NCBI RefSeq assembly: GCF_014639535.1
Contig: NZ_BMGA01000010.1
Span: 53,652-117,651 of the forward strand
Length of the DNA: 64,000 bases
Origin: Flavobacterium palustre
Lineage (GTDB): Bacteria; Bacteroidota; Bacteroidia; Flavobacteriales; Flavobacteriaceae
Direction of reading: 5' to 3'
The notes under the pieces are model-generated. The model ran no database searches. It had not been told where the DNA came from and saw only the letters and a program-made list of their open reading frames with translations. This document shows, piece after piece, positions 9 to 62,466 of the stretch (position 1 is the first letter of the stretch; each line of letters starts with the position of its first letter). A program made the translations under genes and the position numbers.

Positions 9-27
9 AATCCCTCTTTCTCCGCTG
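9..27 (+). repeat. attL: Attachment-site core, copy 1 (tRNA-Ser 3'-end-like), left end of island 1
   Basis: This 19-bp sequence recurs exactly at 32339-32357. Together with the preceding TTCG it reads like the T-loop, T-stem and acceptor 3' strand of a bacterial tRNA-Ser. The five bases before the T-loop cannot pair with the CCCTC stem, so an intact tRNA does not end here. A terminator and an integrase gene follow, which is the usual layout at the integrase-proximal end of an island inserted at a tRNA 3' end. The att role is inferred. Confidence 0.75.
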
Positions 28-47
28 ACTGATTAACAAAAGTCAAC

Positions 48-82
48 AAAACCCTTTAAATCTTATGGTTTAAAGGGTTTTT
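48..82 (+). terminator. Rho-independent terminator after att copy 1
   Basis: A stem of AAAACCCTTTAAA and its complement encloses a loop of about 8 nt and is followed by a T-rich run. It sits 21 nt after the att core, where the terminator of a tRNA gene restored by integration would be expected. Confidence 0.8.
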
Positions 83-120
83 CTTTTTATGCAATGTGCA
101 GAATATTCATTTATTCTCAA

Positions 121-151
121 TACTAAAGGAGCACAATTCGGGGTACATAAA
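121..151 (+). repeat. Putative integrase arm-type site, left (direct repeat of 32257-32287)
   Basis: About 26 of 31 bases match 32257-32287, including a shared GGGGTACATA block. Inside it, GGGGTAC at 140-146 is repeated in inverted form at 167-173. Repeats just inside both ends of an integrative element are typical of arm sites bound by the N-terminal domain of tyrosine integrases. The pairing is seen directly; the binding role is inferred. Confidence 0.6.
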
Positions 152-275
152 TGAGGTTCATTTCAAGTACCCCTATCTGAAGTAAATGAGTATCCGAGCA
201 CAGGTATAGAAGCTGAACATCTTGATTGGCTTCGGTAACAATTTTAACTTAATAATAATTTAAAAGGTTACCACC

Positions 276-1523
276 ATGAACAATCCAATTACAATTCTTT
301 TTTACCTAAAAAGAGCAAAAGCAAATTCAAATGGACTAGTTCCCATATTTCAAAGAATTACCATTAACGGAAAACGATTAGACAACAGTACCGGAAAATT
401 CATAGATCCGACAAACTGGAACGCTGATTTATCCAGATTAAAAGGTAATTCGGCAGAAGCTAGAACAATAAATAGTCATCTTGAAAATTTAAAAGGAAAG
501 ATTTATGAAGCTGAGAAAAAATTAATCTCCCGGGATGAAGAATTAAACATCGAAAATATCCGAAATATACTTTACAATAGTAAGAAACGGGAACATTTAC
601 TGATTCCTATTTTCAAAGAACACAATCGTAAAATAAAAGAATTAATCGGTTTGGAATACGCACCAGGAACACTGGAACGATATGAAACATCCCTAAAACA
701 CACTCAAAATTTCCTAAAATGGAAATATAGTATTTCCGATATCAGTATTGAAAAAATTGATCACGCCTTTATTACCGAATATGAATTCTATTTGCGCAGC
801 GAGCGAAAATGCGCCAATAACACAGCTGTAAAATACATCAAGAACTTTCATAAAATCATCAATCAATGTCTAGCCAATGGATGGCTAGATAAAGATCCTT
901 TTGTAAACTATAAAGCAAAAGTCAAAGAAGTAATTAGGGAGTTCCTAACTGAAAAAGAAATTGAAACAATAATGAATAAAGAGTTTGTTTCTGAGCGTCT
1001 CGAATTAGTCCGTGACATCTTTATTTTCAGCTGCTTTACCGGTTTGGCATATATCGATGTAAAACAACTTACATTGAATAATATTTCGTTAGGAATAGAT
1101 GGAGATAAGTGGATATATAAAAATCGACAAAAAACAGACACAACATCTAAAATACCATTACTCCCTACTGCACAACTTATTCTGGATAAATATGAAAACC
1201 ATCCCGTCTGTAAGAACGAAAAACGACTACTTCCTATCCTGTCCAATCAAAAAATGAATGCTTATTTAAAAGAAATAGCGGATGTATGTGGAATCAAAAA
1301 GGATCTTACCTTTCATATTGCCCGCCATACTTTTGCAACAACGGTAACACTTTCTAATGGTGTCCCTATCGAAACTGTTAGCAAGATGCTTGGTCATACT
1401 AATCTAAAAACTACTCAACATTATGCCAAGATATTAGACAAAAAAATTAGTGAGGACATGCAATTTCTTAAAGATAAATTTAACGTAAAAAGAGATAAAA
1501 TACAACAAAATAAAAATATTTAG
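276..1523 (+). CDS. int: Tyrosine-type site-specific recombinase (island 1 integrase)
   Basis: The 415-aa protein has an N-terminal arm-DNA-binding region (about 1-95), a SAM-like core-binding region (about 110-210) and a C-terminal catalytic domain. The catalytic signatures are FHIARHT (HxxR), LGHTN and the nucleophile-bearing HYAKI. Where classical integrases have TGLR it reads TGLAYIDV, so the first catalytic arginine is not at its usual place, as is common in Bacteroidota recombinases of the IntDOT type. It starts 249 nt after att copy 1, so it probably integrates and excises island 1. RteC-like and excisionase-like genes follow on the same strand. Confidence 0.93.
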   Translation: MNNPITILFYLKRAKANSNGLVPIFQRITINGKRLDNSTGKFIDPTNWNADLSRLKGNSAEARTINSHLENLKGKIYEAEKKLISRDEELNIENIRNILYNSKKREHLLIPIFKEHNRKIKELIGLEYAPGTLERYETSLKHTQNFLKWKYSISDISIEKIDHAFITEYEFYLRSERKCANNTAVKYIKNFHKIINQCLANGWLDKDPFVNYKAKVKEVIREFLTEKEIETIMNKEFVSERLELVRDIFIFSCFTGLAYIDVKQLTLNNISLGIDGDKWIYKNRQKTDTTSKIPLLPTAQLILDKYENHPVCKNEKRLLPILSNQKMNAYLKEIADVCGIKKDLTFHIARHTFATTVTLSNGVPIETVSKMLGHTNLKTTQHYAKILDKKISEDMQFLKDKFNVKRDKIQQNKNI

Positions 1524-1595: not shown

Positions 1596-2420
1596 ATGCT
1601 ACCAGACTATAAAACCTACTTTGATCAAATATATTTAGGCTTAAGAGCTTTAAAACAACAGGAAAACAATGGAAATTGCAAAAAGCTAATTCAATATTTA
1701 GAACACCATAAATTGGTGGTCAATAACTGGTTACGCAATTATAACTTTTCAACGGACGAAGAAGAAATAAAATTTTTCAAGAATTATAAGCCTCAATTAA
1801 CCTCTAAAATCATCTATTACAAAATCCGCCAGGATATCTACCTCAACTTACCTAAATCACAGAAAGCAATCTACAAATACTACGACAAACTGCTGGATAA
1901 AAACAATCATGTTCCAACTAAATTAAAACCGTTTTATCGTTATTTAGGAAAGGAATCGACTCACCGGGATACCGAATATTTCTTAAGACGAAATAATATC
2001 TCCGACATCAATGATCAATATCATTTTATTTTTTCAGATGAGCGAACCTGTACAAAAATGGATATTTCAATAGCCATATTAATAGCCCGCGAAAAAATCA
2101 TTAGTCATCTTGAAACCAGGTTGAATGAAATTGAACAACAAACCAAAAATTCTAAATGGATTTCCAATTTGAAATGGACGGGAACCAAAATTGAACTTAT
2201 CGAATTAATTTATTCACTCCAATTTGTAAAGGTTATAAATGCGGGTAATACCGATATCAAAGAAATTGCTGCCGGTATGGAACATTTATTTAACATCGAG
2301 TTAAAACCCCATTTGTACGGAACTTACCAAGATATTAAGAAACGAAAAACAGGACAAACTAAGTTCCTGGACAAAATGTCAATTACCTTACAAACTACCA
2401 TTTTCGACGAAGAAATCTAA
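1596..2420 (+). CDS. rteC: RteC domain protein
   Basis: The 274-aa protein resembles RteC family proteins of Bacteroidota conjugative elements: a helical N-terminal half, a central FKNYKPQL / YYKIRQDIYLN segment, and a C-terminal half with IELIYSL and the conserved tail motif DIKKRKTGQTKFLDKM. In CTnDOT, RteC activates excision genes; here a similar role in island 1 is inferred from its place between the integrase and an excisionase-like gene. A perfect terminator hairpin follows the stop. Confidence 0.85.
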   Translation: MLPDYKTYFDQIYLGLRALKQQENNGNCKKLIQYLEHHKLVVNNWLRNYNFSTDEEEIKFFKNYKPQLTSKIIYYKIRQDIYLNLPKSQKAIYKYYDKLLDKNNHVPTKLKPFYRYLGKESTHRDTEYFLRRNNISDINDQYHFIFSDERTCTKMDISIAILIAREKIISHLETRLNEIEQQTKNSKWISNLKWTGTKIELIELIYSLQFVKVINAGNTDIKEIAAGMEHLFNIELKPHLYGTYQDIKKRKTGQTKFLDKMSITLQTTIFDEEI

Positions 2421-2605: not shown

Positions 2606-2670
2606 ACCTATGGAAATAAATTATTCCAAAAGCCCTTGTTTTGTCTTGTTCAACTTTAAACAAATTCAAA

Positions 2671-2973
2671 ATGAGCTTACATCCTAAAAAACTGTTCCCG
2701 GAAGTCGAAAATATCGAACTATTGAACCACCAGGTCGTTACCAAAAGAGACCTTCTAAATGCTTCTAACATTATTCTCTCTGAATTAAAAGAAATCCTAT
2801 CCATAAAGGAAAAGCCATCCGAATGGTTGCGTTCAACCGAAGTTCGTAAAATATTAAAAATATCCAGCGGAACGCTCCAAACACTTCGTATCAGTGGTGC
2901 TTTAAATTACACCAAAATTGGAGGCACCTTGTACTACAAATACGAAGACCTCGAGAAATTACTCAATCAATAA
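2671..2973 (+). CDS. Excisionase-like helix-turn-helix protein
   Basis: This is a 100-aa protein from this ATG; an in-frame ATG at 2641 would add 10 residues. The C-terminal half (WLRSTEVRKILKISSGTLQTL, then a YYKYEDLEKLL tail) is the MerR-like HTH_17 fold used by excisionases and small regulators of Bacteroidota mobile elements. The N-terminal half is a short helix with many charged residues. It is probably a recombination directionality factor or regulator of island 1. Confidence 0.75.
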   Translation: MSLHPKKLFPEVENIELLNHQVVTKRDLLNASNIILSELKEILSIKEKPSEWLRSTEVRKILKISSGTLQTLRISGALNYTKIGGTLYYKYEDLEKLLNQ

Positions 2974-3025: not shown

Positions 3026-3946
3026 ATGAACTACATTAAACATCTCACTGGCTTTTTCATTAAATCCAATCAGGATCTAAGCATCACTCCAACTCACATC
3101 AGTTTGTATCTGGCATTATTTCAAAGATGGAATCTAAACCGCTTTAAAAATCCAATTCTAATCTCCAGAGAAGAAATGATGCTTACTGCTAAAATAAAAT
3201 CCAAAGCCACTTACCATAAATGTATTAAGGAGCTGCATGATAAAAAATATATTATTTACAAACCATCCTATAATCCTTATACCGGCAGCGAAGTAATCTT
3301 ACCCGATTTATCTTTAAATGCAATAGACAGCCATGGTGTTAACGATTCAATTACAGAGATTACCATACCAGATATTGAACCAAACCTGTTCAATTCAGAA
3401 CAAACAAGTACAAAAGATGAACCTATGAAGTTCAATAAATGTGTAACTAGTTCAAATAATGAGTTTAGCGAACCATTAAATGAACCAACACCCCCTAAAA
3501 AAGACACAAAAAAAGACTTAACCGTACTAAATTTTGACAGCACCATACCAAATTTTGACCGAACCGTACTAAAAAATGGTATCTATAATAAAACTAATAT
3601 AAACACTAATAAAACTATAAGTGCACCCACCCAAAAAAAGGAAAAAAATAAAACCAGTTCAATAAATGAAAAAGTACCTCCAAACTTAGATGCTGTTAAA
3701 AATTATTTCAAAGAAAAAAATATCCGCGAACTGGAAGCCGAAAAGTTTTTCAACTATTATAATTCCAATGGCTGGCTCATAGGTGGTAAAACGCCAATGA
3801 AAGATTGGAAAGCAGCAGTACGAAATTGGATCTTAAACCTGGAAAAGTTCAATAACAATCAAAACCTTCAAACAAATCCAAATCCAAACTTAAAACCTAA
3901 TAATCTCAACGTCTCTAACAACAAAGACTATGCCGAACCGCTATAA
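3026..3946 (+). CDS. Putative replication/regulatory protein of the mobile element
   Basis: The 306-aa protein has an N-terminal region (about 1-95) that looks like a winged helix: THISLYLALFQRWN, then a helix with SKATYHKCIKELHDKKYI. A low-complexity linker rich in Asn, Thr and Lys spans about 100-215. The C-terminal block contains YFKEKN, KFFNYYNSNGW and DWKAAVRNWI, as seen at the end of replication-initiator-like proteins of Flavobacteria and Bacteroides mobile elements. I place it by architecture and by the DnaC-like gene that follows; the exact role is unproven. Confidence 0.6.
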   Translation: MNYIKHLTGFFIKSNQDLSITPTHISLYLALFQRWNLNRFKNPILISREEMMLTAKIKSKATYHKCIKELHDKKYIIYKPSYNPYTGSEVILPDLSLNAIDSHGVNDSITEITIPDIEPNLFNSEQTSTKDEPMKFNKCVTSSNNEFSEPLNEPTPPKKDTKKDLTVLNFDSTIPNFDRTVLKNGIYNKTNINTNKTISAPTQKKEKNKTSSINEKVPPNLDAVKNYFKEKNIRELEAEKFFNYYNSNGWLIGGKTPMKDWKAAVRNWILNLEKFNNNQNLQTNPNPNLKPNNLNVSNNKDYAEPL

Positions 3947-4133: not shown

Positions 4134-4778
4134 ATGACCTACTACGACACCTACCATATCGCCAACAATACCAAAATTTTTGAACCACGAAAATGTTTTC
4201 AATTCCTGGAACAACAAGGAAAAGAAATGTTCAATTCCAATTTCAAAATCCATAGTTACGACTATCCAACTATTTACAAGCTACTGATTTATGCTATTAG
4301 AGACCAAAAGGTTGCTCTAGAGTTAGGAATTGACCTCAACAAAGGAATTATGCTTTCGGGACCAATTGGATGCGGAAAAACCTCATTAATGCACCTGATA
4401 AAACCTTTTATCCATCAAAAAAATGAATACAAAATCAAAACCACCAGACAAATTTCCTTCGAATTTGCTAAATCCGGTTACGAAATCCTTAGTCAGTACA
4501 CCTATAAAAACCCGAACCAAAACCGTTTGACCGGCTATTGTTTTGACGACCTTGGTGCCGAACAACAAATCAAACATTTCGGTAATGACTGTAACGTTAT
4601 GGCCGAAATCCTAATCACACGCTATGAAGAATTCATCGCCAATGGTTCGATTACTCACATAACAACCAATCTTTCTGCTTCTGAAATTGAAAAAGCTTAT
4701 GGAAATCGGGTTCGTTCAAGATTGAGACAAATGTTTAATTTGATAGCTTTTGACAAAGAAGCAAAAGATAAACGATAA
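4134..4778 (+). CDS. DnaC/IstB-like AAA+ ATPase
   Basis: In this 214-aa protein, Walker A is GPIGCGKTS, Walker B is CFDDLGAE, a sensor block reads THITTNLSA, and the tail YGNRVRSRLRQMF holds the likely arginine finger, all as in helicase-loader DnaC-type ATPases. It lacks the zinc-binding start of cellular DnaC. Beside the putative replication protein upstream, it probably supports element replication or mobilisation. The 7-bp repeats abut its start. Confidence 0.8.
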   Translation: MTYYDTYHIANNTKIFEPRKCFQFLEQQGKEMFNSNFKIHSYDYPTIYKLLIYAIRDQKVALELGIDLNKGIMLSGPIGCGKTSLMHLIKPFIHQKNEYKIKTTRQISFEFAKSGYEILSQYTYKNPNQNRLTGYCFDDLGAEQQIKHFGNDCNVMAEILITRYEEFIANGSITHITTNLSASEIEKAYGNRVRSRLRQMFNLIAFDKEAKDKR

Positions 4779-5327: not shown

Positions 5328-7124
5328 TTAATTTTGTAGCGGCTTCTCTTTAGAATAAAACTCTTTCAGCACAAACCACGCTTTTTTCTTTTCTCCCTTA
5401 TCAGAGAGTAACCCCTTACGATTCCATCCTTTTTGGAAAGTGGGATGCAAGCGAAGTGGCGATTGAAAATCGGCTAAAATCCACGGACAGGTACCACGTA
5501 AAAATGGAATGCGTTTCAGCATCGTAATCTGATCTTTATAAAATTGTTCCATGTATTCTTCACTCCACGAACTGGCCACATCTGCAGCACCATGATTTTC
5601 ATACAAGGCTTCACAGCCAAATTCACTCATAATAACCGGTTTCTCGTATTTAGATACCCATTCAATTTCGGACGGTGATTTAAACCAAGGTTTGTACCAA
5701 CCTATGTATTCATTGATACCAATCACATCTAGTGAATTAATCAGATCATCTTCAATGACAACTTTGTTTCCAACATATTTTATATTATTGAAAGCTGCCG
5801 AAATAAGACGAGTATTATCTATACTTCGACAAAGCATAGCCATATTAGAAATCGCCTGAGTACGATTTTTAGATCCTTGTGGAGTTTCGTTCGCCATACT
5901 CCAGGTTATTATTCCACAACGGTTTTTATCGCGTCTTAAAATTTCTTTCAGTTGCAAATTCATCAGCTGTTGTGTAGGTTCTTTGTCAAAACTAATTGAC
6001 TGGAAAACGGGAACTTCTTCCCAAATCATAAAGCCCATACGTTCGGCCATGCGTACCATATTCTCGTTATGAGGATAATGAGAGGTTCGTATAAAGTTAC
6101 ACCCCAATTCTTTTGCCCAAGTGAGTAACATAAGTGCATCCTCCTCGGAATAAGCACGACCTTTACGTTGTGGCACTTCTTCGTGAATGTTTACCCCTTT
6201 TAAAAATACTGACTCTCCGTTTAGTAAAATGTCGGTTCCTTTAGTTTCAATGCTTCGAAATCCTATTGCTTCTGACACAGCATCACTTTCACAACTAATT
6301 TTTACCTGATACAATTTCGGATTTTTTGGATTCCAAAGCGATAATTTAGCGGGAAATTTTATTGCTGCATAGCCTTCAGCATTGGTTTTCAAAACCAAAT
6401 TGATTTTTGCTTCTGGGATTTGTACTTTAACTTGCTGGGCTGATGTTACTCCTGCTAACTTTATATATCCTGACACTATGTTTTTCGAACCTTTCTCCAG
6501 TTGAATAAAATAATCATCAATATAAACCGAAGGCGTTTCTACTAACCTTACATCACGTGTGATTCCACCATAATTCAACCAATCGTAACCTGTAGCTGGC
6601 ACACCATCTTTTTGTCGCTCATTGTTAACGCGTACAATAATCGAATTTTCACCGTCTTTTATCTTATCAGTAATTTCAAATTGAAAAGGAGTAAAACCTC
6701 CTTCATGACTACCAATTTTTTCCGAATTCAAAAAAACATCAGTGATATAGTTGGCAGCATCAAAATACAGGAACAAACGTTTACCAGCCTGTTTTTGAGC
6801 AACAAAAGTTTTCTTGTACCAAACTGTCGATTCGTAGTTTTTAAGTTCCGGCAATTGCGAATTGATATCTCCCGGCACATTAAAAACGGGTCCACCATCA
6901 AATGAATATTCATAAAAATCTGATTTTTCAACAGGCTTCTTGTCTTTATATAGAGCCTTCCATGATTTAATTCCAACGTCGTAAGGATCTATGATGACTT
7001 GCCATTTACCGTTAAGGCTTGTTTGCTTTCGAGCGGGAATATTAGTCATAAAATCCTGTGCAGAAAGAAACGTGCATTTAAATAAAATTAAAAGTAATAA
7101 AAGCCTACAGCTATATTTTTTCAT
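5328..7124 (-). CDS. GH2 beta-glucuronidase-like glycosidase
   Basis: This 598-aa protein has a signal peptide (about 1-22), an N-terminal sugar-binding sandwich (about 35-195, with DWLNYGGITRDV), an Ig-like domain (about 200-290) and a TIM barrel. The acid/base is E413 in SMANET and the nucleophile E501 in MSEFGCE. Near the end, GWNRKG holds N568-x-K570, matching the NxK motif of beta-glucuronidases that reads the uronate carboxylate. Cleavage of terminal beta-GlcA from arabinogalactan or pectin side chains in the periplasm is therefore likely. It is the last gene of the pectin cargo. Confidence 0.82.
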   Translation of the reverse strand: MKKYSCRLLLLLILFKCTFLSAQDFMTNIPARKQTSLNGKWQVIIDPYDVGIKSWKALYKDKKPVEKSDFYEYSFDGGPVFNVPGDINSQLPELKNYESTVWYKKTFVAQKQAGKRLFLYFDAANYITDVFLNSEKIGSHEGGFTPFQFEITDKIKDGENSIIVRVNNERQKDGVPATGYDWLNYGGITRDVRLVETPSVYIDDYFIQLEKGSKNIVSGYIKLAGVTSAQQVKVQIPEAKINLVLKTNAEGYAAIKFPAKLSLWNPKNPKLYQVKISCESDAVSEAIGFRSIETKGTDILLNGESVFLKGVNIHEEVPQRKGRAYSEEDALMLLTWAKELGCNFIRTSHYPHNENMVRMAERMGFMIWEEVPVFQSISFDKEPTQQLMNLQLKEILRRDKNRCGIITWSMANETPQGSKNRTQAISNMAMLCRSIDNTRLISAAFNNIKYVGNKVVIEDDLINSLDVIGINEYIGWYKPWFKSPSEIEWVSKYEKPVIMSEFGCEALYENHGAADVASSWSEEYMEQFYKDQITMLKRIPFLRGTCPWILADFQSPLRLHPTFQKGWNRKGLLSDKGEKKKAWFVLKEFYSKEKPLQN

Positions 7125-7388
7125 GGGAAAATAGATTTATTATATTATAGATTTTATATAAGAAAAGACAGCAGTATGTTATTTAACGACTCACTATTAA
7201 TTTATTTTTACTGTTGTCTCAGCTAACTTTAGAACAAATAAGAATCTTACAAATTAAGACTAATTTTCAAATAGATTTGATAGAACATATCACTATTTAG
7301 ATGGATTATATTACTATAATCTCCAACTTCATAACAGCCAATAAAGTCCTTATTTTACCCAAAGTAGAAACCTTTAACACTAAAACTA

Positions 7389-7432
7389 AAAGAATCTCAG
7401 TTAAAAGGCTACGCTTTTAATTGAGTTTCTTT
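7389..7432. terminator. Long inverted repeat between GH43 and GH2 genes
   Basis: Two 19-nt arms match at 17 positions around a 6-nt loop. The hairpin lies in the 347-nt gap after the GH43 stop. It could be a terminator, an mRNA-stabilising hairpin or a repeat element. Nothing else is recognised in 7125-7471. Confidence 0.55.
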
Positions 7433-7471
7433 ATCAAAACGAGTAACGTTTTTTTCAGAACCAGACAATCA

Positions 7472-8479
7472 TTAATCCTTCCTTAAAATGCTTGTCTCTC
7501 CGGTTTTTACATTAATTTTCCATGGTTTCGGCTCTGGCAACCAAAGCTTCCCCCCTCCAATTTCCAAAGGCATCCACAGGTAACGTGAATCCCATTGTGT
7601 GTCCGGTTTCCAAATATCACCCGTAAATAGTACTGTAGTTTTCTTGGAGCCAACCACTTTTATCAGCATAGACGATTGTGAGTCGTAGGTCTTTGTTTCT
7701 ACAGGAGCTATATCTTTAAATTCTGTCCAAGGTCCTTCAAGCGAAGTAGCAGTTGCATATTTATTTGGATTTGGTTTCCAACCAGTAAGACCTGAACCTA
7801 AGCAATAATACAAACCTTTGTAATTTACAATAGCTCCACCTTCTATTCGGGCTTTTATAAGTGACATGTTCTTTTCAACGTCCATATAATCATCTGAAAG
7901 TCGGGCTATACGAAAACCACCACTCGGACGATCTTCAAAAATGATATAGGCTGTGCCATCATCGTCAATAAATTGACCAATATCCCTGCTTTCAAATCCC
8001 AGTGGTCGAAAACGTCTCACATATTGAAACGGCCCGGTTGGTTTATCGCTTACCGCTATTCCCATATTTGCCAGTTTATAATTGACATCAATATGTAAGT
8101 ACATCACATATTTCTTCGTCTTTTTGTTAAAATAAACCTTTGGTCTTTCCAACACCCAATTGGAAGAAAGCGAATCGGGAGCAGCCATTTTCAAGACATT
8201 ACCTTTAAATTTCCAGTTAGTTAAGTCTTTAGATGAATAACAACTTACATAGCGATACTGAGGATCTAGATCTTTTGCCCTACTTTCACCATACCAATAA
8301 TAAGTGTTTTTAATTTTGGTAATTCCACCACCATGAGCTTGTATGTGATTCCCATCGGTATCTGGCCAAATTTCACCAGGATGAATACTCTTTTGTTTTT
8401 GTGCCATTACACTTGTACAAAAAGTGACTATAAAAAGCGCAAGAAAGAAATGTGTGTTTTTTAATAAAATATTCTTCAT
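7472..8479 (-). CDS. GH43 glycosidase, probably exo-beta-1,3-galactanase type
   Basis: The 335-aa protein has a signal peptide (about 1-26) and one five-bladed propeller. The start of the domain reads IQAHGGGI followed by YYWYGES, the pattern of the GH43_24/34-type subfamilies, in which the usual catalytic-base Asp near the N-terminus is absent. A glutamate in ARIEGGAIV is a good acid candidate. GH43_24 enzymes remove galactose from beta-1,3-galactan, so this gene points to type II arabinogalactan side chains. Subfamily assignment is by eye. Confidence 0.75.
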   Translation of the reverse strand: MKNILLKNTHFFLALFIVTFCTSVMAQKQKSIHPGEIWPDTDGNHIQAHGGGITKIKNTYYWYGESRAKDLDPQYRYVSCYSSKDLTNWKFKGNVLKMAAPDSLSSNWVLERPKVYFNKKTKKYVMYLHIDVNYKLANMGIAVSDKPTGPFQYVRRFRPLGFESRDIGQFIDDDGTAYIIFEDRPSGGFRIARLSDDYMDVEKNMSLIKARIEGGAIVNYKGLYYCLGSGLTGWKPNPNKYATATSLEGPWTEFKDIAPVETKTYDSQSSMLIKVVGSKKTTVLFTGDIWKPDTQWDSRYLWMPLEIGGGKLWLPEPKPWKINVKTGETSILRKD

Positions 8480-8556
8480 GTTTTATTTTTTGTATAATTG
8501 CAAAATAATTTTTATTACTACTATTTTTATTTAGCTCGATATTAAAAAGATACTCA

Positions 8557-8841
8557 TCAAAGAACGGATATATTATCCGACACATAATACCCTTTTCCCA
8601 AAACGGGAAAAATTAAATTTCGTTCTCGTAAAATTTTATAAGCTTTTCCAACAGTATCTTTAGATATAGAACAAGAGCTACTAAGTTCTGTAATGGAAGG
8701 TATTCGTTGCCCTTCTTTTATTTTTCCATTTATAATATCATTCGAAATACTTTGTTCAATCTGATTATATTTGGGAACACTAGAATCATTGTTAATATTA
8801 ACAATAATATTTGTGACTCTTTTTGTCATTTTTTTTTTCAT
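8557..8841 (-). pseudogene. Truncated GntR-family regulator (HTH domain only)
   Basis: These 94 codons contain a complete GntR winged helix (KYNQIEQSI, IKEGQRIPSITELS, SKDTVGKAYKILRERNLI, LGKGYYV) and then stop. Sugar-responsive GntR proteins of Bacteroidota are usually about 330 aa with a LacI-like sensor domain starting just after this point. Directly after the stop another frame reads FFDEYLF, like the expected LLFDE start of that domain, before it also dies. This suggests a frameshift and deletion. A functional HTH-only protein remains possible. Confidence 0.6.
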
Positions 8842-8916
8842 TATCTTTTTATTATTATTTACAAGACTATATTTATTACTTCTAAAAAATCAAATATCGC
8901 TGATAAAACAAAACGT

Positions 8917-12210: not shown

Positions 12211-12265
12211 TTGTTTATTTTTTTAGGATCTGTGGGTCTATGTTGTAATTGCACCAAAACCTAAA

Positions 12266-13558: not shown

Positions 13559-13733
13559 AGCAATTATAATCGGTGTTTTGTGTTTATAATCAATTCTAAA
13601 TTTATGTTATTTTCTGTTCCTCATTCTAAAATTGTGTATTATTTATTGGTCAATAAATTAAGTTTAAAAGAATACGCTTTAGAACATTTCATTTTAGCTT
13701 CTAAAATTTGAACATGCAGACTTTAAGTTTAAC

Positions 13734-13770
13734 AACCAAATCTATCGACTTTCAGTCCATAGATTTGGTT
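13734..13770 (-). terminator. Strong hairpin terminator after the FAS1 gene
   Basis: AACCAAATCTAT and its complement enclose a second GACT/AGTC stem, giving a long hairpin 32 nt after the stop at 13802. The minus-strand run after the stem is T-poor, so it may act as terminator or 3' stabiliser. Confidence 0.65.
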
Positions 13771-13801
13771 ATTCATTCTAAATTATATATAAAATACTGA
13801 T

Positions 13802-45236: not shown

Positions 45237-45253
45237 TTTAAAATTTAAAGAAA

Positions 45254-47155: not shown

Positions 47156-47174
47156 TATCATATAAACTGCAATC

Positions 47175-47504: not shown

Positions 47505-47519
47505 TAAACATTAATCCAA

Positions 47520-47680: not shown

Positions 47681-47713
47681 AAATTTAATAGCATTTTGAA
47701 CAAAATCAAAACC
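47681..47713 (+). promoter_or_regulatory. Candidate HTCS operator upstream of the sulfatase gene
   Basis: Partner of 41766-41798; 69 nt upstream of the sulfatase start. Weaker partial matches lie at about 57565-57587 (before kduD) and 39545-39570 (before heparinase III). Confidence 0.6.
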
Positions 47714-47781
47714 GCTTTCAGATGCAGATAGCTAAATTCGTAATATCATTTAAAAGTTATTCAATAAAATTAGCATAGATT

Positions 47782-49164: not shown

Positions 49165-49186
49165 ATCCGATTAAAAAAATAAAGAT

Positions 49187-51871: not shown

Positions 51872-52010
51872 AATAGCCCTATTCTTTTAAATTATAACAA
51901 CATTACTTTTTTGCCCCAAATTGCCTAACTTGTTGTTCTCTTTTAACGAGAAAAATAAATATTATTTAAAAGAAAATAAGCGTAGAAAAACAACTATAAT
52001 CCACACTGTC

Positions 52011-55000: not shown

Positions 55001-56075
55001 TGATCGTTTTTATCAGGTAAGCAATAAAGAAATGAATTTAGGTTCAGGTGTCGGACTGGCATTTACCAAGCGTTTGGTCGAATTGCATCATGGAACTATT
55101 ACTGCCGAAAGTACTAAAGAAGAAGGCAGTACTTTTACGGTGACCCTTCCTATTTCAGACGAAATTTATAAAAATGATTTACACCTTGAAAATACCATTC
55201 AGGAAGTTGCTATAGTAACTGAAAAAGAAATTGATGAAGAAAATTATTTGCAATTAGATCAAAATGAAGCGATAATCAATGAAATTACCGAAGGTGTACA
55301 AGCTATGAAATTGCTTATTGTTGATGATAACAAAGAAATTTTAGCTTATCTACAGGATTATTTCTCTAAAATGTATGAAGTAACGGTGGCCTATGATGGT
55401 CAAATGGCTTTGGATTTATTAGAAGTACAGCCTTTTGATATTATTATCAGCGATGTAATGATGCCTGAACTCGACGGTTTGCATTTTTGCAAACGGGTAA
55501 AACAAAACATCAATACTTCCCACATTCCTTTTATGCTGTTAACTGCCAAAACAGAAACAAGCCAACAAATAAAAGGACTGGAAATGGGAGCTGACGATTA
55601 TATTACCAAGCCTTTTTCTACTCAATTGTTAGCACTTAAAATTTCAAACCTGTTGCGCTCCCGTAAACGCCTTAAAGAATATTATTCTGCATCACAAGAA
55701 CTAATACCCGAAAATATTGCTTTTAATACTCTTGATGAAGAATTTTTAAAAGAGGCTATTAACATTGTTGAAGAACACTTGGCTGATTCTGAATTTACAG
55801 TAGATGTTTTCAGTAAAAAAATCGGGATGAGTCGTTCCAATCTTTATTTGAAATTAAAAGCAATTACTGGCGAATCAGCAATGGATTTTATAAAAAGAAT
55901 CCGATTTAAAAAAGCCGTTGAACTGATGCAAAGCAAACGCTACACGATTGCACAAATCACCTATATGTGTGGATTTAATTCGCCTTCTTATTTTTCAACG
56001 GCATTTAAACAACATTATGGTTGTATGCCAAGCGAATATTTAGATAAAACCGACAACTCTAAAGAAGAATCATAA
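52011..56075 (+). CDS. Hybrid two-component system regulator (heparin locus)
   Basis: The start is placed at MRKKIACIALFCI because it gives a signal peptide ending at SHAQ; the frame is open back to 51921 without one. The 1354-aa protein has propeller repeats, a Y_Y_Y domain, a membrane segment (FILLLLIVIGTATYIGF), HisKA with H838 (VSHELRTP), an ATPase domain (GSGVGLAFTKRL), a receiver with D1148 (SDVMMPELDG) and an AraC HTH (MSRSNLYLKLKAIT). It probably binds a heparin-derived oligosaccharide in the periplasm and activates the locus. Confidence 0.93.
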   Translation: MRKKIACIALFCITLLATKSHAQMQDRYFRNISVDKGLSQSTVFAIRQDALGFIWIGTQDGLNRYDSKGFKVYRPIKNVKNSLQSYYIRSLFTDHKGQLWIGGNKGISVYNYDTDSFTNYQLPRSLGEWYISSITEDNAHQIWATSIAGDVFVLSPKADHFIPVKFNASSHEIKKIAYIGLWQKQIILGTDVGLFKLNPKSSQLKKINIGVKKTYINDVYIENKNIWVATEGNGIINYDTKNNKLTVLLHKTTTNSIADNNIRCVGKDTEGNLWIGTFKGLSIFNPKENSFTNYYHQIAQPYTISQNSVRCFFKDKQNGIWLGTYYGGINYYHKNDIKFNLLSQNSGKPSLNDEVIGVIKQDAKGNFWIGSNDKGLNYWNKNANTISYYSNSENNPNSISSNNIKAIEFDNNANILIGTHNGGLNLLNPNNGVVQRFLHDDNNPSSIAGNLVYSILKDSKNRIWVGTRSGLDQFHPETKSFTHVHLDKAGKRPSSDDITYLFEDSKHRIWIGTTNGVTLFYPDNLLFGDIGHGKRSDDIVNCITEDQKHRIWIGTREGLRLYDETQETFISFKETIDFVKETIYGIIPDEDGNLWISTNRGLIKFNPDKGSVQTFDESDGLQNNQFNEYSFYKAKDGMLLFGGIKGLSYFYPSMIKQQALPLKLNFTALEALNKTVAVNDETNILEQHIDQTESIEIGPEYKQFSIFFNTFNYISSNRTHYYYKLDGIDKDWQLTDELKISYSNLPVGKYNLQIKAMGPNGEMSAIRNLEIKILPPWYKTSWFILLLLIVIGTATYIGFRMITERIKALQQLKQERIDKERVRDINQVKMDFFTNVSHELRTPLTLILAPLEELLKLPFTDRATKKKHELMFLNAKRLYNLVDQLFEFRKTEMGTQQLKVSKNDIVRFVQEVYESFKPLSDKKQIHFTNHSSETALSFYFDKDAMEKILFNLLSNAFKYTEAGHNISIELLKKENEIVIKVSDTGVGISEEDLAKVFDRFYQVSNKEMNLGSGVGLAFTKRLVELHHGTITAESTKEEGSTFTVTLPISDEIYKNDLHLENTIQEVAIVTEKEIDEENYLQLDQNEAIINEITEGVQAMKLLIVDDNKEILAYLQDYFSKMYEVTVAYDGQMALDLLEVQPFDIIISDVMMPELDGLHFCKRVKQNINTSHIPFMLLTAKTETSQQIKGLEMGADDYITKPFSTQLLALKISNLLRSRKRLKEYYSASQELIPENIAFNTLDEEFLKEAINIVEEHLADSEFTVDVFSKKIGMSRSNLYLKLKAITGESAMDFIKRIRFKKAVELMQSKRYTIAQITYMCGFNSPSYFSTAFKQHYGCMPSEYLDKTDNSKEES

Positions 56076-56109
56076 TCTTAATTTTAAAAGACTAAAAAAA
56101 AACTCACTC

Positions 56110-57240
56110 ATGAAATTTATGAAATTATTTTCGGGAATTGCTTTTATATTGCCTTTGGCTCTTTTAGCACAAACAAAAGCGATTGTAAGCATCCAAAACA
56201 ATTCAGCTTTAAATTACAAAGACGCTGTGGTAGCCATAAAATGGGACGCCGTTTTACTACAATATCCCCAAATTGACACTGCTAACTTTGTAGTTCTTAA
56301 TTCGGTTACTAAAAAGCAAATTCCCTATCAATTAGAACACAAAGGACACTCGGCTATTCAAAATGTATTGGTACAAACGGATGTCAAACCCAAATCGTCG
56401 CTTACTCTTTTGATACAAAAAGGAAAACCGGAAATTTTTATTGCCAAAACTTATGCTCGTTATGTACCGGAACGCAAAGATGATTTTGCCTGGGAAAACG
56501 ACCAAATAGCTTTTCGCACCTACGGTAAAGCACTGGAAAAAGAAAAAGACAATGCCTATGGTTTTGATGTTTGGGTAAAACGCACTAACCGAATGATTCT
56601 TAACGAACGCTATAAAAGGGCTGATTATCATACTGACCATGGCGATGGTTTAGACTATTACCATGTAGGCTTTACATTAGGCGCCGGTAATATGGCTCCC
56701 TTTGTAAATGACACCATCCGTTATTCAGGAAATTATCAGCAATGGAAAATTCTGGACAACGGTCCTTTACGCACTACATTTCAACTCATTTATGATAGTT
56801 GGAATGCTGGCGGAATAAAAGTGAGTGCTACAAAAACCATTTCTATCGATGCGGGTTCCCAACTCAATCGCATCGAAAACGTCTATACTTTTAACAGTGA
56901 TAGTACCTTGCCAGTTGTAGTGGGAATCATTCGAAGACCCGAAGCCGGATACATTTCACTGAACGAACAACAAGGAATTATGGGATATTGGGAACCTACC
57001 ATGAATGAAAATGGTACAACCGGAGTAGGTTCGATAATTACAACTCCTATTACAAAAATGTGGGTCAATAACGAACAATTATTAGCTAAAACTACCGTTA
57101 AAAACAACGAAACTTTTATTTACTACACAGGAGCCGCCTGGGATAAAGCAGAAAAAATTACCGATGCTAAAAAATGGTTAGACTACCTGAATGATTTTAA
57201 TCAAAAACTAAAAAAACCTTTAGTTGTGAGTATCAAATAA
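56110..57240 (+). CDS. DUF4861 family secreted protein
   Basis: The 376-aa protein has a signal peptide (about 1-20) and is all-beta. Recognisable blocks are ERKDDFAWENDQIAFRTYG, HTDHGDGLDYYHVGFTLGAGN and MGYWEPTMNENG, which I associate with DUF4861. Such genes recur in loci for uronate-containing glycans. The His/Asp-rich HTDHGDG block is a candidate active or metal site. It lies 34 nt after the HTCS, so it is co-transcribed. Lyase or hydrolase activity is possible but not shown. Confidence 0.75.
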   Translation: MKFMKLFSGIAFILPLALLAQTKAIVSIQNNSALNYKDAVVAIKWDAVLLQYPQIDTANFVVLNSVTKKQIPYQLEHKGHSAIQNVLVQTDVKPKSSLTLLIQKGKPEIFIAKTYARYVPERKDDFAWENDQIAFRTYGKALEKEKDNAYGFDVWVKRTNRMILNERYKRADYHTDHGDGLDYYHVGFTLGAGNMAPFVNDTIRYSGNYQQWKILDNGPLRTTFQLIYDSWNAGGIKVSATKTISIDAGSQLNRIENVYTFNSDSTLPVVVGIIRRPEAGYISLNEQQGIMGYWEPTMNENGTTGVGSIITTPITKMWVNNEQLLAKTTVKNNETFIYYTGAAWDKAEKITDAKKWLDYLNDFNQKLKKPLVVSIK

Positions 57241-57258
57241 CTCTTATCCCATTTCATT

Positions 57259-57294
57259 AAAAGGCGATTAAATCAAAAGATTTAGTCGCCTTTT
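57259..57294 (+). terminator. Terminator after the DUF4861 gene
   Basis: AAAAGGCGA-TAAATC pairs with GATTTA-TCGCCTTTT around an AAAA loop, ending in a T run. The remaining 57295-57716 holds the kduD promoter region and no gene. Confidence 0.85.
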
Positions 57295-57716
57295 TCAATT
57301 TAATTTTACTGCTATTTGTTTGAAACATAAAAGTTTTTAAACCATTAAGTTCATGAAGAAAATTAAGATTTACAGTATTCTTAAACCTCATAATTTTCTT
57401 CATAGTTTTCAAAAAAGAATCTTCACAACATTTCCAACTGAACCTTTAATTATAATCAGCTAAAAAAACAACCAACTAGAACTTACTCAGAAACCTGTTA
57501 TTCATGGATTTACAGCTATAAAACAAGCTGTTTACACAAATTCGAAAGTTAATTGGTAAATATTGAAATAGCCTTTTTGATTTCAAATATAACTTCGCAA
57601 TATGAAATGGATAAAAGCCAAACTCAATTTTTAGTTTCAGCATCCAAATTTCAGGATAAACTTAAAAAGTAGCAATTTCTAAAACAAAATAAATACTAAC
57701 TAAAACAATTAAAACA

Positions 57717-58505
57717 ATGTCAATTAACTTATTTGATTTAACAGGGAAAACAGCTTTAATAACTGGAGGAGTTCATGGTTTAGGAATGGCTATGGCTAAG
57801 GGATTAGGACATGCGGGAGCAAAAATTGTAATAAACGATCTTTCGCAGGAAGCAATTGACAAAGCTGTTGCCGAATACCAGTCGGTAGGAATTGAAGCTT
57901 ATGGCTATGTATTTAATGTAACCGACGAGAAAGCGGTAATTGCAGCGATAAATAAAATAGAAACAGAAGTTGCACCAATTGATATTCTAATAAACAATGC
58001 AGGAATTATCAAAAGAACTCCAATTATTGAAATGGAAGTCGAAGATTTTACGGCAGTAATAAATGTAGATTTAATTAGTCCGTTTATTGTTTCTAAAAAT
58101 GTAGTCAAAGGTATGATTGCACGTGGTGGTGGAAAAATCATCAATATCTGCTCTATGATGAGCGAATTAGGAAGAGATTCTGTAAGTGCTTATGCTGCTG
58201 CAAAAGGAGGGTTGAAAATGCTGACTAAAAACATGGCGACGGAATGGGCAAAATTCAATATTCAAACAAACGGAATTGGTCCGGGTTATTTTGCAACAAG
58301 TCAAACGGCTCCAATTAGAGTAAACGGACATCCTTTTAATGAATTTATCATCAGCAGAACACCGGCAAATCGTTGGGGAGATCCGGAAGATTTACAAGGA
58401 GCAGCCATCTTTTTAAGTTCTAAGGCAAGTGATTTTGTAAACGGACATATTGTTTATGTTGACGGAGGAATATTAGCTACTATAGGAAAACCATCTAATG
58501 AATAG
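57717..58505 (+). CDS. kduD: 2-dehydro-3-deoxy-D-gluconate 5-dehydrogenase-like SDR
   Basis: The 262-aa protein has no signal peptide and is a short-chain dehydrogenase: nucleotide motif TGGVHGLG, NNAG, and catalytic S...YAAAK. It matches the KduD/gluconate 5-dehydrogenase group. KduD reduces 3-deoxy-D-glycero-2,5-hexodiulosonate to KDG after KduI isomerises the unsaturated uronate released by GH88. KduI is not in the window. First gene of a kduD-transporter-nagB unit with short gaps. Confidence 0.85.
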   Translation: MSINLFDLTGKTALITGGVHGLGMAMAKGLGHAGAKIVINDLSQEAIDKAVAEYQSVGIEAYGYVFNVTDEKAVIAAINKIETEVAPIDILINNAGIIKRTPIIEMEVEDFTAVINVDLISPFIVSKNVVKGMIARGGGKIINICSMMSELGRDSVSAYAAAKGGLKMLTKNMATEWAKFNIQTNGIGPGYFATSQTAPIRVNGHPFNEFIISRTPANRWGDPEDLQGAAIFLSSKASDFVNGHIVYVDGGILATIGKPSNE

Positions 58506-58546
58506 TACTGCTACTCTCCTATTACAAACCATTTTATTTAAAAACT

Positions 58547-59929
58547 ATGTCAAAAATTGAAGATACAATAACTTTGAATCAAGGGAGTACTGTAATCCCA
58601 ATGGTTATTTTAACCAGCTTATTTTTCATATTAGGATTCGTAACCTGGTTGAACGGACCGCTAATTCCATTCTTTGAATTGGCTTGTGAATTAACATCCT
58701 CACAGGCTTATTTTGTGACATTTGCTTTTTACATCGCCTATTTTGTTATGGCTATTCCCTCATCACGGATAATTGAAAATATAGGTTATAAAAATGGAAT
58801 TTCATTTGGCTTGATTACTATTGCCTTTGGTGCTTTCATGTTTTATCCAGCTGCAGAGAGCCGTACCTTCTACTTATTCTTAATAGCACTTTTTATCATG
58901 GGAACAGGTTTGGCCATTTTACAAACTGCAGCAAATCCTTATGTGGTAGTTATTGGACCACGAGAAAGTGCCGCTGCCAGAATCAGCGTACTAGGAATTG
59001 CAAATAAATTAGCAGGCTTTATAGCTCCTCTTGTATTAACTGCTTTAGTATTATCAAATATGCAGGATTACACTGCCGAAAAAATTGCAGCTCTTGACAG
59101 TGTAGCGAAATCAGCAGCTTTGGATACACTCGCACTACAATTACAAACTCCTTATATTTATATGGGAGTTATCATCCTTATTCTGGCTGTACTTGTAAAA
59201 TTCTCTCCTCTACCTGAAATTGATTTGGACAAAGATGGAAATGTGGCACACATGAGTATTTTCAAACAAATCCTAAATACGTTCCAATTTCCTCAATTGG
59301 TTTTAGGAGTAATCACTTTAATGTTATACCTATCTGCCGAAGTTTTGGCGGGAGATTCCATTGGTGGATTTGGTAAACAATTAGGCGTTTACGGTGAAGA
59401 TGGCAATTTTTATTTAAAACTGACTTCATTTACCATGACCGCAATGGTAGTAGGATACATTCTGGGCATTACTCTTATTCCAAAATACATTTCTCAGGTT
59501 CAGGCATTAAAAGCTTCCGGTATTTTAGGTTTGATTCTGGTGCTGCTAATTGTAATAATTTCTCCAAGTATAATAATTCAATTGCCTGGAATTCCTACTT
59601 TACCACTGGTGATTATTTTAGTGGCTCTTATGGGACTTTCTAATGCGCTATGTTGGCCAGCCATTTGGCCTATGGCTTTACAGGATTTAGGCGGATATAC
59701 TAAAATTGCCAGTGCTATATTGATTATGGGAATCATTGGAGGAGCTATTTTTCCATTAGTTTATGGTTCTTTAGTAGAAACAATCAATACAGCTAACGAA
59801 GCAAATGGTGTTGCAACAACAGCTAAGAGTGGTAATCAAATTGCCTATTTAATGTTGTTACCCACCTACCTGATGATTATTTTTTATGCCTTTAAAGGAC
59901 ATAAATACAGAAGCTGGTCAAGAAAATAA
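58547..59929 (+). CDS. FucP/NagP-type sugar MFS transporter
   Basis: The 460-aa protein has about 12 membrane segments (e.g. MVILTSLFFILGFVTWLNGP, LFIMGTGLAILQTAANPYVV). The blocks GFVTWLNG, QTAANPYV and WPAIWPMAL are those of the FucP family of sugar:H+ symporters. A soluble insertion lies at about 180-235. By position it should carry glucosamine/GlcNAc or the unsaturated uronate across the inner membrane; the exact sugar is inferred. Confidence 0.85.
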   Translation: MSKIEDTITLNQGSTVIPMVILTSLFFILGFVTWLNGPLIPFFELACELTSSQAYFVTFAFYIAYFVMAIPSSRIIENIGYKNGISFGLITIAFGAFMFYPAAESRTFYLFLIALFIMGTGLAILQTAANPYVVVIGPRESAAARISVLGIANKLAGFIAPLVLTALVLSNMQDYTAEKIAALDSVAKSAALDTLALQLQTPYIYMGVIILILAVLVKFSPLPEIDLDKDGNVAHMSIFKQILNTFQFPQLVLGVITLMLYLSAEVLAGDSIGGFGKQLGVYGEDGNFYLKLTSFTMTAMVVGYILGITLIPKYISQVQALKASGILGLILVLLIVIISPSIIIQLPGIPTLPLVIILVALMGLSNALCWPAIWPMALQDLGGYTKIASAILIMGIIGGAIFPLVYGSLVETINTANEANGVATTAKSGNQIAYLMLLPTYLMIIFYAFKGHKYRSWSRK

Positions 59930-59965
59930 TTCAAATTAAGAGTAAAGATTATAAAATAAAAAACA

Positions 59966-61891
59966 ATGAAAAGTACAATAGACAAAGCGACAGGATTTGA
60001 AAAACGATTTGAAAATATCAATACGGTTGTTTTCCAAAATTCAACTGAGGCATCTAAAGCTGTGGCTCAAGAAATTGCAGCACTTATCAAATCAAAACAA
60101 GAAAATAACCAATCCTGTATATTAGGTTTAGCAACAGGTTCTTCTCCAAAAGGATTATATGCTGAATTAGTACGTCTTCACAAAGAAGAAGGATTGAGCT
60201 TTAAAAATGTAATCACTTTCAATTTAGATGAATATTATCCAATGGAACCGGATTCTATCAATAGCTATGTGCGATTTATGAAGGAATTGCTATTGGATCA
60301 GGTAGATATTTTACCTGAAAATTATCATATTCCTGATGGAACTTTGTCTAAAGAAGAAATTGCATATTATTGTGCGGATTATGAAGCCAAAATCGAAGCT
60401 TTAGGTGGAATTGATTTGCAAATTCTTGGAATTGGAGGAAACGGTCACATCGGATTTAATGAATCCGGTTCTTTGCAAAATTCAAAAACAAGATTAGTGG
60501 CGCTAGACCACATTACCAGAGTGGCCGCAAGTGGCGATTTCTCTGGATTGAGCAATACCCCAAGAACGGCTATTACCTTAGGAGTAAAAAAAATAATGGA
60601 AGCCAAACAAGTTATCCTGATGGCTTGGGGTGAAGGAAAATCAAACATCATTCAAAAATCGGTTGAAGGCGAAGTGACCAATCAAATTCCAGCTTCCTTT
60701 TTGCAAGAGCATAACAATGCTGTTTTTGTTTTAGACAAAGAAGCTTCTTCTAAACTAACCAGAATCAACAAACCATGGTTAGTTGAAAAAATTGTTTGGA
60801 CGGATAAATTAATTAGAAAAGCCGTTTTAGGCTTAGCATTGGATTTAAAAAAACCAATTTTAATGCTTACCGATGCAGATTATATTGAAAATGGGATGAG
60901 TGATTTATTGGCTGATTCAGGCCCTGCTTATGACATCAATATTAAAATTTTTAATAAACTGCAAAACACCATCACAGGTTGGCCGGGCGGAAAACCTAAT
61001 TCAGATGATGAAAACCGACCTGAAAGAGCCGAACCGGCTAGAAAAAGAGTGTTGCTTTTTAGTCCGCATCCTGATGATGACATTATTAGTATGGGAGGTA
61101 CTTTCATGCGTTTGCAGGAACAAGGTCATGAAGTACACGTAGCCTATCAAACTTCAGGAAATATTGCCGTTGCTGATGATGAAGCTTTACGTTTTGCCAG
61201 TTTTGTAGTGGATTACAATGAAAAATTTGGAATAAAAAATAGTGAAGCCGAAGACATTTACAAAAAGGCTTCTGTCTTTTTAAAGAACAAAAAAGCCAGT
61301 GAAATTGATATTCCGGAAGTTCGTTACATCAAAGGATTGATTAGAAAAGGAGAAGCGCGTGCAACAAGCCATTTTGTTGGATTGCCGGACAGTCAAATTC
61401 ATTTTATGGAACTTCCTTTCTATGAAACAGGAACTATTGAGAAGAAACCTATTGGAAAAGAAGATATCCAAATTACGATGGATTTGATTGAAAAAGTACA
61501 GCCACACCAAATCTATGCTGCCGGTGATTTAGCCGATCCACACGGAACACACAAAGTATGTCTGGATGCTATTTTTGAAGCAGTAAAAAATCTCAAGTCA
61601 AAAGATTTCATGAAAAATTGTTGGGTTTGGTTATACCGAGGAGCCTGGCAAGAATGGGGAATTGACGAAATCGAAATGGCCGTACCAATGAGCCCGGATC
61701 AGGTTTTAACCAAAAGACACGGAATTTTCAAACACCAATCTCAAAAAGACGGTGTGGTATTTCAGGGCACTGATTCCAGAGAATTTTGGCAAAGAGCAGA
61801 AGACAGAAATGCCGAAACGGCACAATTATACAATCAATTAGGTTTAGCTCATTATGCTGCTATGGAAGCATTTGTGAGATGGGAGTTTTAG
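59966..61891 (+). CDS. nagB: NagB-like glucosamine-6-phosphate deaminase fused to a PIG-L deacetylase domain
   Basis: The 641-aa protein has an N-terminal NagB domain (about 20-285) with NLDEYYPM and GIGGNGHIGFNESGS. The C-terminal PIG-L/LmbE domain (about 350-640) has the zinc motif SPHPDDD and the second His in DPHGTH. Classic NagB is about 270 aa; the long form is known in Bacteroidota. One chain could deacetylate an amino-sugar substrate and then deaminate GlcN-6-P to fructose-6-P, but coupling is inferred. It completes the amino-sugar branch of the locus. Confidence 0.85.
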   Translation: MKSTIDKATGFEKRFENINTVVFQNSTEASKAVAQEIAALIKSKQENNQSCILGLATGSSPKGLYAELVRLHKEEGLSFKNVITFNLDEYYPMEPDSINSYVRFMKELLLDQVDILPENYHIPDGTLSKEEIAYYCADYEAKIEALGGIDLQILGIGGNGHIGFNESGSLQNSKTRLVALDHITRVAASGDFSGLSNTPRTAITLGVKKIMEAKQVILMAWGEGKSNIIQKSVEGEVTNQIPASFLQEHNNAVFVLDKEASSKLTRINKPWLVEKIVWTDKLIRKAVLGLALDLKKPILMLTDADYIENGMSDLLADSGPAYDINIKIFNKLQNTITGWPGGKPNSDDENRPERAEPARKRVLLFSPHPDDDIISMGGTFMRLQEQGHEVHVAYQTSGNIAVADDEALRFASFVVDYNEKFGIKNSEAEDIYKKASVFLKNKKASEIDIPEVRYIKGLIRKGEARATSHFVGLPDSQIHFMELPFYETGTIEKKPIGKEDIQITMDLIEKVQPHQIYAAGDLADPHGTHKVCLDAIFEAVKNLKSKDFMKNCWVWLYRGAWQEWGIDEIEMAVPMSPDQVLTKRHGIFKHQSQKDGVVFQGTDSREFWQRAEDRNAETAQLYNQLGLAHYAAMEAFVRWEF

Positions 61892-61913
61892 ATATTTTTA
61901 ATTTGTTGTAGTG

Positions 61914-61941
61914 AAAAATGGGGTTAATCAACCCCATTTTT
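61914..61941 (+). terminator. Terminator of the kduD-transporter-nagB unit
   Basis: AAAAATGGGGTT/AACCCCATTTTT stem with a 4-nt loop and a T run. Confidence 0.9.
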
Positions 61942-62061
61942 TTATTTATAGAAACGAAAAAAGTGTTTTACTTAAACCTTAATTTTATGAAGATAATAAA
62001 TCTGTATATCTTTTTTTGATGATATATTTTATTGCTAATCCAAAATAACAACCAAAAAAGC

Positions 62062-62276
62062 GTTCGACCGTCGAACACTTTAAGCTATTATTAAAGTTAT
62101 ATTCTCCATTTTTAAATACCCCTTTTTTGTGAAAATTCTAAAAAAAGCAAACTTATTAACATTAAAAACAATTTAAAAATAAAATCATGTACAATAATAC
62201 TTACAAAAAAAAGGAATTACGCTATATTTTCCTAAGTTATCCAAGAACATTAATATTAGGTATTAAAGTGTTCGAC
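62062..62276. repeat. Palindrome and 14-bp inverted repeat inside the right end of island 2
   Basis: GTTCGAC-C-GTCGAAC is a perfect palindrome (62062-62076). Its right half, extended to GTCGAACACTTTAA (62070-62083), is repeated in inverted orientation at 62263-62276. Position near the island end suggests recombination or regulatory protein sites. No copy was found near the left end of island 2. No gene is visible in 61942-62624. Confidence 0.6.
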
Positions 62277-62454
62277 TGTAATCCCCTCGACTCCAATAAA
62301 TCAAAACGGAACCAATTATTATCTACTAATTTTCAATAATAAATTAATATCTTTACAAAGTAAATAATAAAAGCTTTGAAAATTCAGTTACCCTATTCTT
62401 CGAAAACAGATGTAAACCCCTTATTTTACTGGGATTATTATAAAGGCTACGGAG

Positions 62455-62466
62455 CCTCTTTCTCCG
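62455..62466 (+). repeat. attR: Degenerate attachment-site copy 3, right end of island 2
   Basis: CCTCTTTCTCCG matches 12 consecutive bases of the att core. It sits in a CGGAG/CTCCG hairpin, and a terminator follows 24 nt later, as after copy 1. The match is short, so this end is less certain. Confidence 0.5.

Follow-up and report, generated by a model that had tools for sequence, protein, structure and literature searches.

How did a stretch of the Flavobacterium palustre genome come to hold two large glycan-degradation clusters, each next to a tyrosine integrase gene, between repeated copies of the end of a serine tRNA gene? The window analyzed here (the whole 64,000-nucleotide stretch, 53652-117651 of contig C10, which stops at the window end) had been read in a preliminary description as two PUL-carrying islands stacked at one tRNA-Ser-like attachment site, with an intact tRNA-Ser to be sought upstream. 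A tRNA scan located this gene outside the window, 28 kb upstream (tRNA-Ser(TGA), C10:25648-25733), with ribBA upstream of it and a third integrase behind it. Because the intact tRNA and this integrase lie upstream, window 9-27 falls inside the array rather than at its edge, and there are three islands. The order is tRNA, island 1 (27.9 kb), att2, island 2 (32.3 kb), att3, island 3 (30.1 kb), att4 and a remnant, so that stacking at tRNA-Ser stands while the number of islands rises to three plus a fragment. The tRNA 3' end is present in four copies that bound the islands, all in register, and a single tRNA is intact. Two of these copies are inner att sites with a tRNA-Ser 3'-end core, att2 (9..27, forward strand; right end of island 1 and left end of island 2) and att3 (32339..32357, forward; right end of island 2 and left end of island 3); their 19 bp show no difference, as first described, and the terminators and the two integrases reported behind them were also confirmed. 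The last, att4 (62427..62466, forward), combines an int3-type right-end signature with a 12-bp core, CCTCTTTCTCCG, at 62455-62466. Across the 3.97-Mb assembly there are five copies of this 12-mer: four lie on the same strand of C10 at the proposed boundaries (25721, 53664, 85994 and 116106), and the fifth belongs to a second tRNA-Ser on contig C11; the reversed pattern occurred once. A terminator-like hairpin was recognized by eye 3' of each core, the three int1/2-type left ends (including that at att4) were aligned, and an integrase occupies the tRNA-side end of every island (3/3).

Direct repeats of a tRNA 3' end that bracket the DNA, an intact tRNA at one end, an integrase and variable presence among relatives are the features by which genomic islands are recognized, and the sequence gives good support for three separate integrations behind this single tRNA-Ser, with a fragment of a fourth element. 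We put the probability that the locus is a tandem array of integrative elements, built up at the tRNA-Ser(TGA) 3' end behind ribBA, at nearly nine in ten. The integrases of islands 1 and 2 (int1 and int2) share 67% identity, and that of island 3 (int3) shares 35–37% with both; separate arrivals had already been proposed from the divergence of the two integrases in the window. It is highly unlikely that the array came, or moves, as one composite bracketed by its outermost cores with no separate insertions. All cores have one orientation and any pair could recombine, and composite transfer of tandem elements is described in a passage of PMC5704250; however, the end motifs of islands 1 and 2 differ from each other and match within each island, pectin and heparin genes are found independently in other genomes, and three full-length integrase genes have been kept.

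The end motifs follow a common plan. At left ends, the core and terminator hairpin are followed by an inverted motif repeat about 115–175 bp behind the core, and at right ends the motif appears again, roughly 55–80 bp before the core. In island 2, an arm-site-like left-end motif (140..173) consists of GGGGTACATA (140-149) and an inverted GTACCCC (167-173), and GGGGTACATA recurs at the right end (32276..32285); the island 1 motif is AAAATCGAGACCCTA. Based on 15 int1/2-type intervals (our own two and those of nine other genomes, at the tRNA-Ser or behind it), the longest string shared by paired left and right ends averaged 11.87 bp versus 6.48 bp for re-paired ends, and none of 100000 permutations reached 11.87. 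In a set of 23 intervals, mismatched partners were as good as the true one in 1 of 22 cases for island 1 and 2 of 22 for island 2. At the ends of island 3, motif sharing (7 bp) does not exceed chance, as 8 of 22 mismatched pairs did equally well; the unity of this island would rest on the class of its integrase, its right-end signature and its cargo block. Among frame elements, G119 element 2 behaves likewise (7 bp; 11/22), and its two ends fall into different motif classes, which suggests two fused elements. The motifs are probably integrase arm sites.

Behind att2, island 2 opens with int2 (276..1523, forward), a tyrosine integrase with Arm-DNA-bind_5, SAM_5 and catalytic domains. It is followed on the same strand by RteC (1596..2420; PF09357, E 9.5e-54), an excisionase-like HTH_17 protein (2641..2973), a replication-protein-like (Rep-like) gene (3026..3946) and a DnaC-like helicase loader (4134..4778; phrog_50). 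The Rep-like gene has no Pfam match and matches two PHROGs of unknown function, and we assign its probable role because it stands before the DnaC gene. At the right end lie DUF6943 (29407..29829, forward; named by 76% homology to the island 1 copy), DUF5675 (30510..30905, reverse; 90% to the island 1 copy) and a 252-aa protein of unknown function (30921..31679, reverse; 95%). A 28-bp direct repeat is present nearby (window 28596-28623 and 29289-29316). Island 1 has the same frame at lower identity in its left half (HTH17 47%, Rep-like 41–42%, DnaC-like 55%), and a 497-aa gene occupies the place held by RteC in island 2; its Rep-like protein (L009:9798-10694) contains CHPERSRGA, which we take to be typical of REP-like repeats.

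The full frame therefore reads integrase, RteC or the 497-aa substitute, HTH17, Rep-like, DnaC-like loader, cargo, DUF6943, DUF5675, 252-aa protein and att. In 13 of the 15 int1/2-type intervals, HTH17, Rep-like, DnaC, DUF6943, DUF5675 and the 252-aa gene are all present and keep a constant order and orientation, with RteC in 11 of these 13 and the 497-aa gene in two; the exceptions are G013 element 2 (tail missing) and G119 element 3 (integrase alone). Relatives of int2 are found in 149 of 399 genomes, our own included, at E 1e-100, a cut-off that also admits int3-like integrases. When int2 and its best-scoring relative in each of 29 genomes were compared, a tRNA-like 3' end or a copy of the core preceded the start of all 30 loci by 251–303 bp. 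In 16 cases this was the intact T arm of our tRNA-Ser, in nine an inner copy of its core, in four an apparently different tRNA 3' end (as read from the sequence) and in one an inner copy of the latter. Three more distant integrases of our own assembly (C3, C5 and C8) gave 5–6 mismatches in the core test. A fourth integrase of the family in our assembly (C2:312203), 62% identical to int1, lies about 290 bp behind tRNA-Val(TAC), so the frame integrase family also uses other tRNA genes. Among named genomes, int2 had two relatives in Mucilaginibacter, at 57% and 44%, and a weak match in one MAG (26%), in a comparison from which records near the window were possibly excluded. The 252-aa protein matched no PDB entry and no phage protein, and its AlphaFold model has a mean pLDDT of 51. 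Titles and abstract openings of the open-access literature searched apparently hold no description of this family. On C11 (26428-27944), 139 bp at the second tRNA-Ser(TGA) are 99% identical, and a relative of the 252-aa frame gene (82%) lies just behind; no PF00589 integrase was found on that contig, and the locus is possibly an inverted or decayed element.

Island 3 differs from this family. Its integrase, int3 (32952..34172, forward), is a tyrosine integrase of a different class (no Arm-DNA-bind_5 match), and int3-type integrases were found at the same tRNA in other genomes. The cargo is a heparin/heparan-sulfate-type PUL (34455..61891, forward), syntenic with blocks in three other genomes, that encodes GH88, a polysaccharide lyase, heparinase II/III, SusC, SusD, a sulfatase, a DUF4962/Hepar_II_III_C protein, a hybrid two-component regulator, DUF4861, SDR, MFS and NagB/PIG-L; it thus combines the SusC/SusD pair, degradative enzymes and regulator that define a PUL. 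The pectin-type cargo of island 2 (5328..28314, reverse) encodes GH2, GH43, GH106, GH28, fasciclin, a further GH2, a Rha78-like N domain, a PL4-type rhamnogalacturonate lyase and a hybrid two-component regulator. No SusC or SusD was found among the island 2 ORFs scanned, and a SusD search gave no place in this island, so the complete glycan cargo first ascribed to both intervals holds for the heparin island and not for the pectin cluster. Both substrates are those predicted from the enzyme families.

The 12-bp core at att4, described earlier as a relic, is present, although decay is not needed to account for it. The 28 nt before it match eight right ends of other genomes at 11–21 of 28 positions (these ends were picked by their like core neighborhood, and their int3 type was observed in G173 and G005 and is presumed in the others), compared with 6–11 of 28 for 14 int1/2-type right ends. 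Because this stretch resembles apparent int3-type right ends, the short core need not reflect decay. Core length (21, 17 and 12 bp) was also considered as an age clock and dropped, because short cores with a like left neighborhood recur at other right ends. Past att4, a stretch of about 95 bp (62467..62565, forward) with no integrase behind it appears to be what is left of a fourth element, of int1/2 type; it matches the left ends of G013 and G139 elements (counting the core, 84% across 95 nt and 79% across 113 nt). A broken, partial uvrA copy follows (62622..63540, forward; named from its product, no Pfam match); it is 87% identical at the nucleotide level to the copy on C2, and uvrA is conserved across the order.

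The two clusters could instead be old chromosomal neighbors of the tRNA, with the integrases merely inserted alongside, and several relatives bear on this reading. In G173, at the same ribBA-tRNA-Ser, relatives of the GH43, GH106, GH2 and regulator genes (80–83% nucleotide identity, order and orientation kept) lie 2.5 kb past an inner core, behind an int3-type element and without the int2 frame. G366 has related pectin genes in another order beside SusC-like pieces, where they follow a similar core but on a contig that lacks the tRNA, and their identity (71–80%) is about that of the flank (75%). Likewise, the heparin block of G005 (79–86%, with one 127-bp piece at 91%) is no closer than its flank (84%). 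Against this, the genes are rare at the cut-offs used (GH106 in 7/399 genomes at E 1e-200 and heparinase in 25/399, our own included in both), and the heparin block (window 34321-61919) lies on a contig other than that of ribBA in each of G415, G005 and G366 (73–84% in the last, where the MFS gene is missing). In G415 the block is collinear at 89–94% compared with 83% for the ribBA flank, and this closer match argues for transfer. We therefore consider old neighborhood quite unlikely. Three pectin genes of G266 are 85–86% identical versus 74% for the flank. The G173 arrangement implies that island 2 may have captured a resident pectin cluster, a possible origin of its cargo. The G415 block ends 1 kb short of an att4-like right-end signature (20/28), yet it is 2 kb from tRNA-Arg. 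In G005, the region 16–21 kb past the heparin block (G005:C11:164889-170586) encodes a PF03432 relaxase and a distant integrase with 25% identity to int2, and the block may thus sit beside a mobilizable element.

Occupancy of the tRNA-Ser site varies between species, and like islands stack there in several related species. Among 20 relatives, an int1–3 relative (the only integrase kinds counted) lies directly behind the tRNA in nine, one of them broken, and not in 11; in G012 the tRNA-Ser is elsewhere in the fetched stretch, and in the stretch fetched for G016 none was found. In the closest relative examined, G051 (flank nucleotide identity 91% as far as the tRNA), two cores enclose another insert, of 47 kb, with a different PUL that shares some island 3 gene relatives in opposite orientation. 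The comparison with relatives that had been proposed as a check thus revealed variable occupancy and no conserved backbone, but a precise empty site for islands 1–3 was not found in any near-identical strain among the relatives examined. A conserved right flank was also sought as proof of an empty site and not found: the nine integrase-free relatives compared share none, the nearest being weak matches beyond the last core of G139, where a few G011 genes (35–64% amino acid identity) and one G004 gene (88%) recur.

The view that whole PULs are gained at a hotspot is not supported in that form, because PULs are one of several cargo types. Island 1 carries a type ISP/IIG restriction-modification enzyme, a SIR2 protein with a short HerA-like neighbor, HipA, chromate transport with a ChrB-type regulator, superoxide dismutase and an IS1595-type transposase. 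Five other frame elements (121 ORFs; based on the best 25 of 231 PADLOC and 98 Pfam families, with ten proteins in full) include cyclases, DRT2, AbiEii, STAND, GmrSD, OLD-like, E2/ThiF/JAB and RND or ABC efflux. Defense genes recur, alongside efflux and metal resistance. PUL enrichment was considered and rejected: four SusD genes were found in 19 att-to-att intervals of 11 genomes versus 2.18 expected from genome density (some genome sizes rounded), which is no clear enrichment.

Under the tandem-array reading, each integrase, with an HTH_17 excisionase-like partner where present, would recombine its own arm-like motifs with the tRNA core, and excised circles would be joined at TCCCTCTTTCTCCGC, or at CCTCTTTCTCCG for island 3. 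Each insertion would rebuild the tRNA and push older islands downstream; because newcomers would insert at the tRNA, island 3 is probably the oldest and island 1 the youngest. The Rep-like/DnaC pair may copy the excised circle, the cargo between the DnaC gene and DUF6943 would be exchangeable, and cell-to-cell transfer would need a helper.

The end motifs differ by lineage (GAGACCC, GGGGTAC, GGTTACC, GTGTCAC/GAGTCAC, and GGTGCAC or GGGGCAC), and their distribution may constrain stacking. We placed 109 junctions (10 of the 60 stretches requested had no placeable core), of which 100 were distinct, 60 at the tRNA and 40 inner; 23 inner junctions could be classified on both sides and 17 could not. 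The same motif class stood on both sides in 1 of 23, compared with 4.48 expected (P 0.04), and in 0 of 21 versus 3.96 (P 0.011) when two junctions with an int3-like upstream right end were removed, a cut chosen after the data had been seen; these statistics are post hoc and ignore kinship between elements. They replace a first test with hand-entered classes and a sixth class added (0 same in 14 tandem pairs, P about 0.04; 12 pairs in an earlier form). Neighbor exclusion between same-motif elements is suggestive only. Tentatively, and with less than even odds, frame elements may form arm-site compatibility groups in which adjoining at one tRNA requires differing motifs, making the array an ordered stack of non-cross-reacting cargo modules. 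Such groups would be like incompatibility groups, for integrated DNA, and a cluster such as a PUL trapped between two elements could turn mobile.

No relaxase and no type IV secretion or Tra genes, which together mark an ICE, were found by Pfam among the main ORFs (at least 100 aa) of islands 1–3. The PF03432 relaxase has no match in our assembly and, in a search of 14 genomes, none within their int1/2-type intervals. One was seen in the same tRNA-Ser array of another genome, behind a second tRNA copy (G015:C9:1105036), a possible helper or IME. This absence from the frame intervals would fit phage satellites (PICI-like) rather than conjugation-dependent elements, as would the integrase, HTH_17, replication-like protein and DnaC-like loader, which make up a satellite-like set, and the phage records with relatives of DUF5675 (194) and DnaC (11). 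A satellite origin nevertheless appears rather doubtful: no capsid, terminase or packaging family was found among the island 1–3 ORFs scanned, the 252-aa gene lacks a phage match, the elements span 28–66 kb, which is large for a phage satellite, and the nearest integrases among plasmid records lie in ICE-like elements.

As an array of integrative elements, the locus indicates that large catabolic clusters can join one neutral site without gene breakage, and it corrects the idea of the site as a PUL hotspot. It also provides a defined element family whose ends are constant and which occurs in many genomes of the genus, making excision, neighbor exclusion and helper dependence testable. Among known systems, the integrase of a Parabacteroides distasonis ICE with CTnDOT-type Tra genes (NZ_OY725747) is 47% identical to int2 and lies directly behind a tRNA-Ser(TGA) with the 3' end CCTGTCTCTCCGC; ArdA and TraM/N/O stand behind it, whereas none was recognized in islands 1–3. 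An NBU2-like element of Phocaeicola massiliensis (OY726019) and a second integrase meet at a single tRNA-Ser-type core: the two integrase genes flank an inner CCTGTCTCTCCGC copy and are both directed outward, and in this 20.9-kb stretch the integrases alone matched frame proteins. The element bears lnu(AN2), which we take as a link to NBU2, and NBU2 targets tRNA-Ser. According to passages of PMC5704250, linAN2 is carried on NBU2, and NBU1 and NBU2 encode a MobP relaxase. The iOriT-type IMEs, or hitcher elements, outlined in PMC11389934 are integrative, have no relaxase and require a helper; like them, the frame elements are integrative with no PF03432 relaxase found. A working tRNA-Arg island is reported from Riemerella (PMC6764341). 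Tandem accretion of IMEs and CIMEs is established, with newcomers entering the att site of residents and members often decayed (PMC5704250); the frame and paired end motifs go unmentioned in the relevant passages of that source, and site-specific insertion is what this array shares with such accretion.
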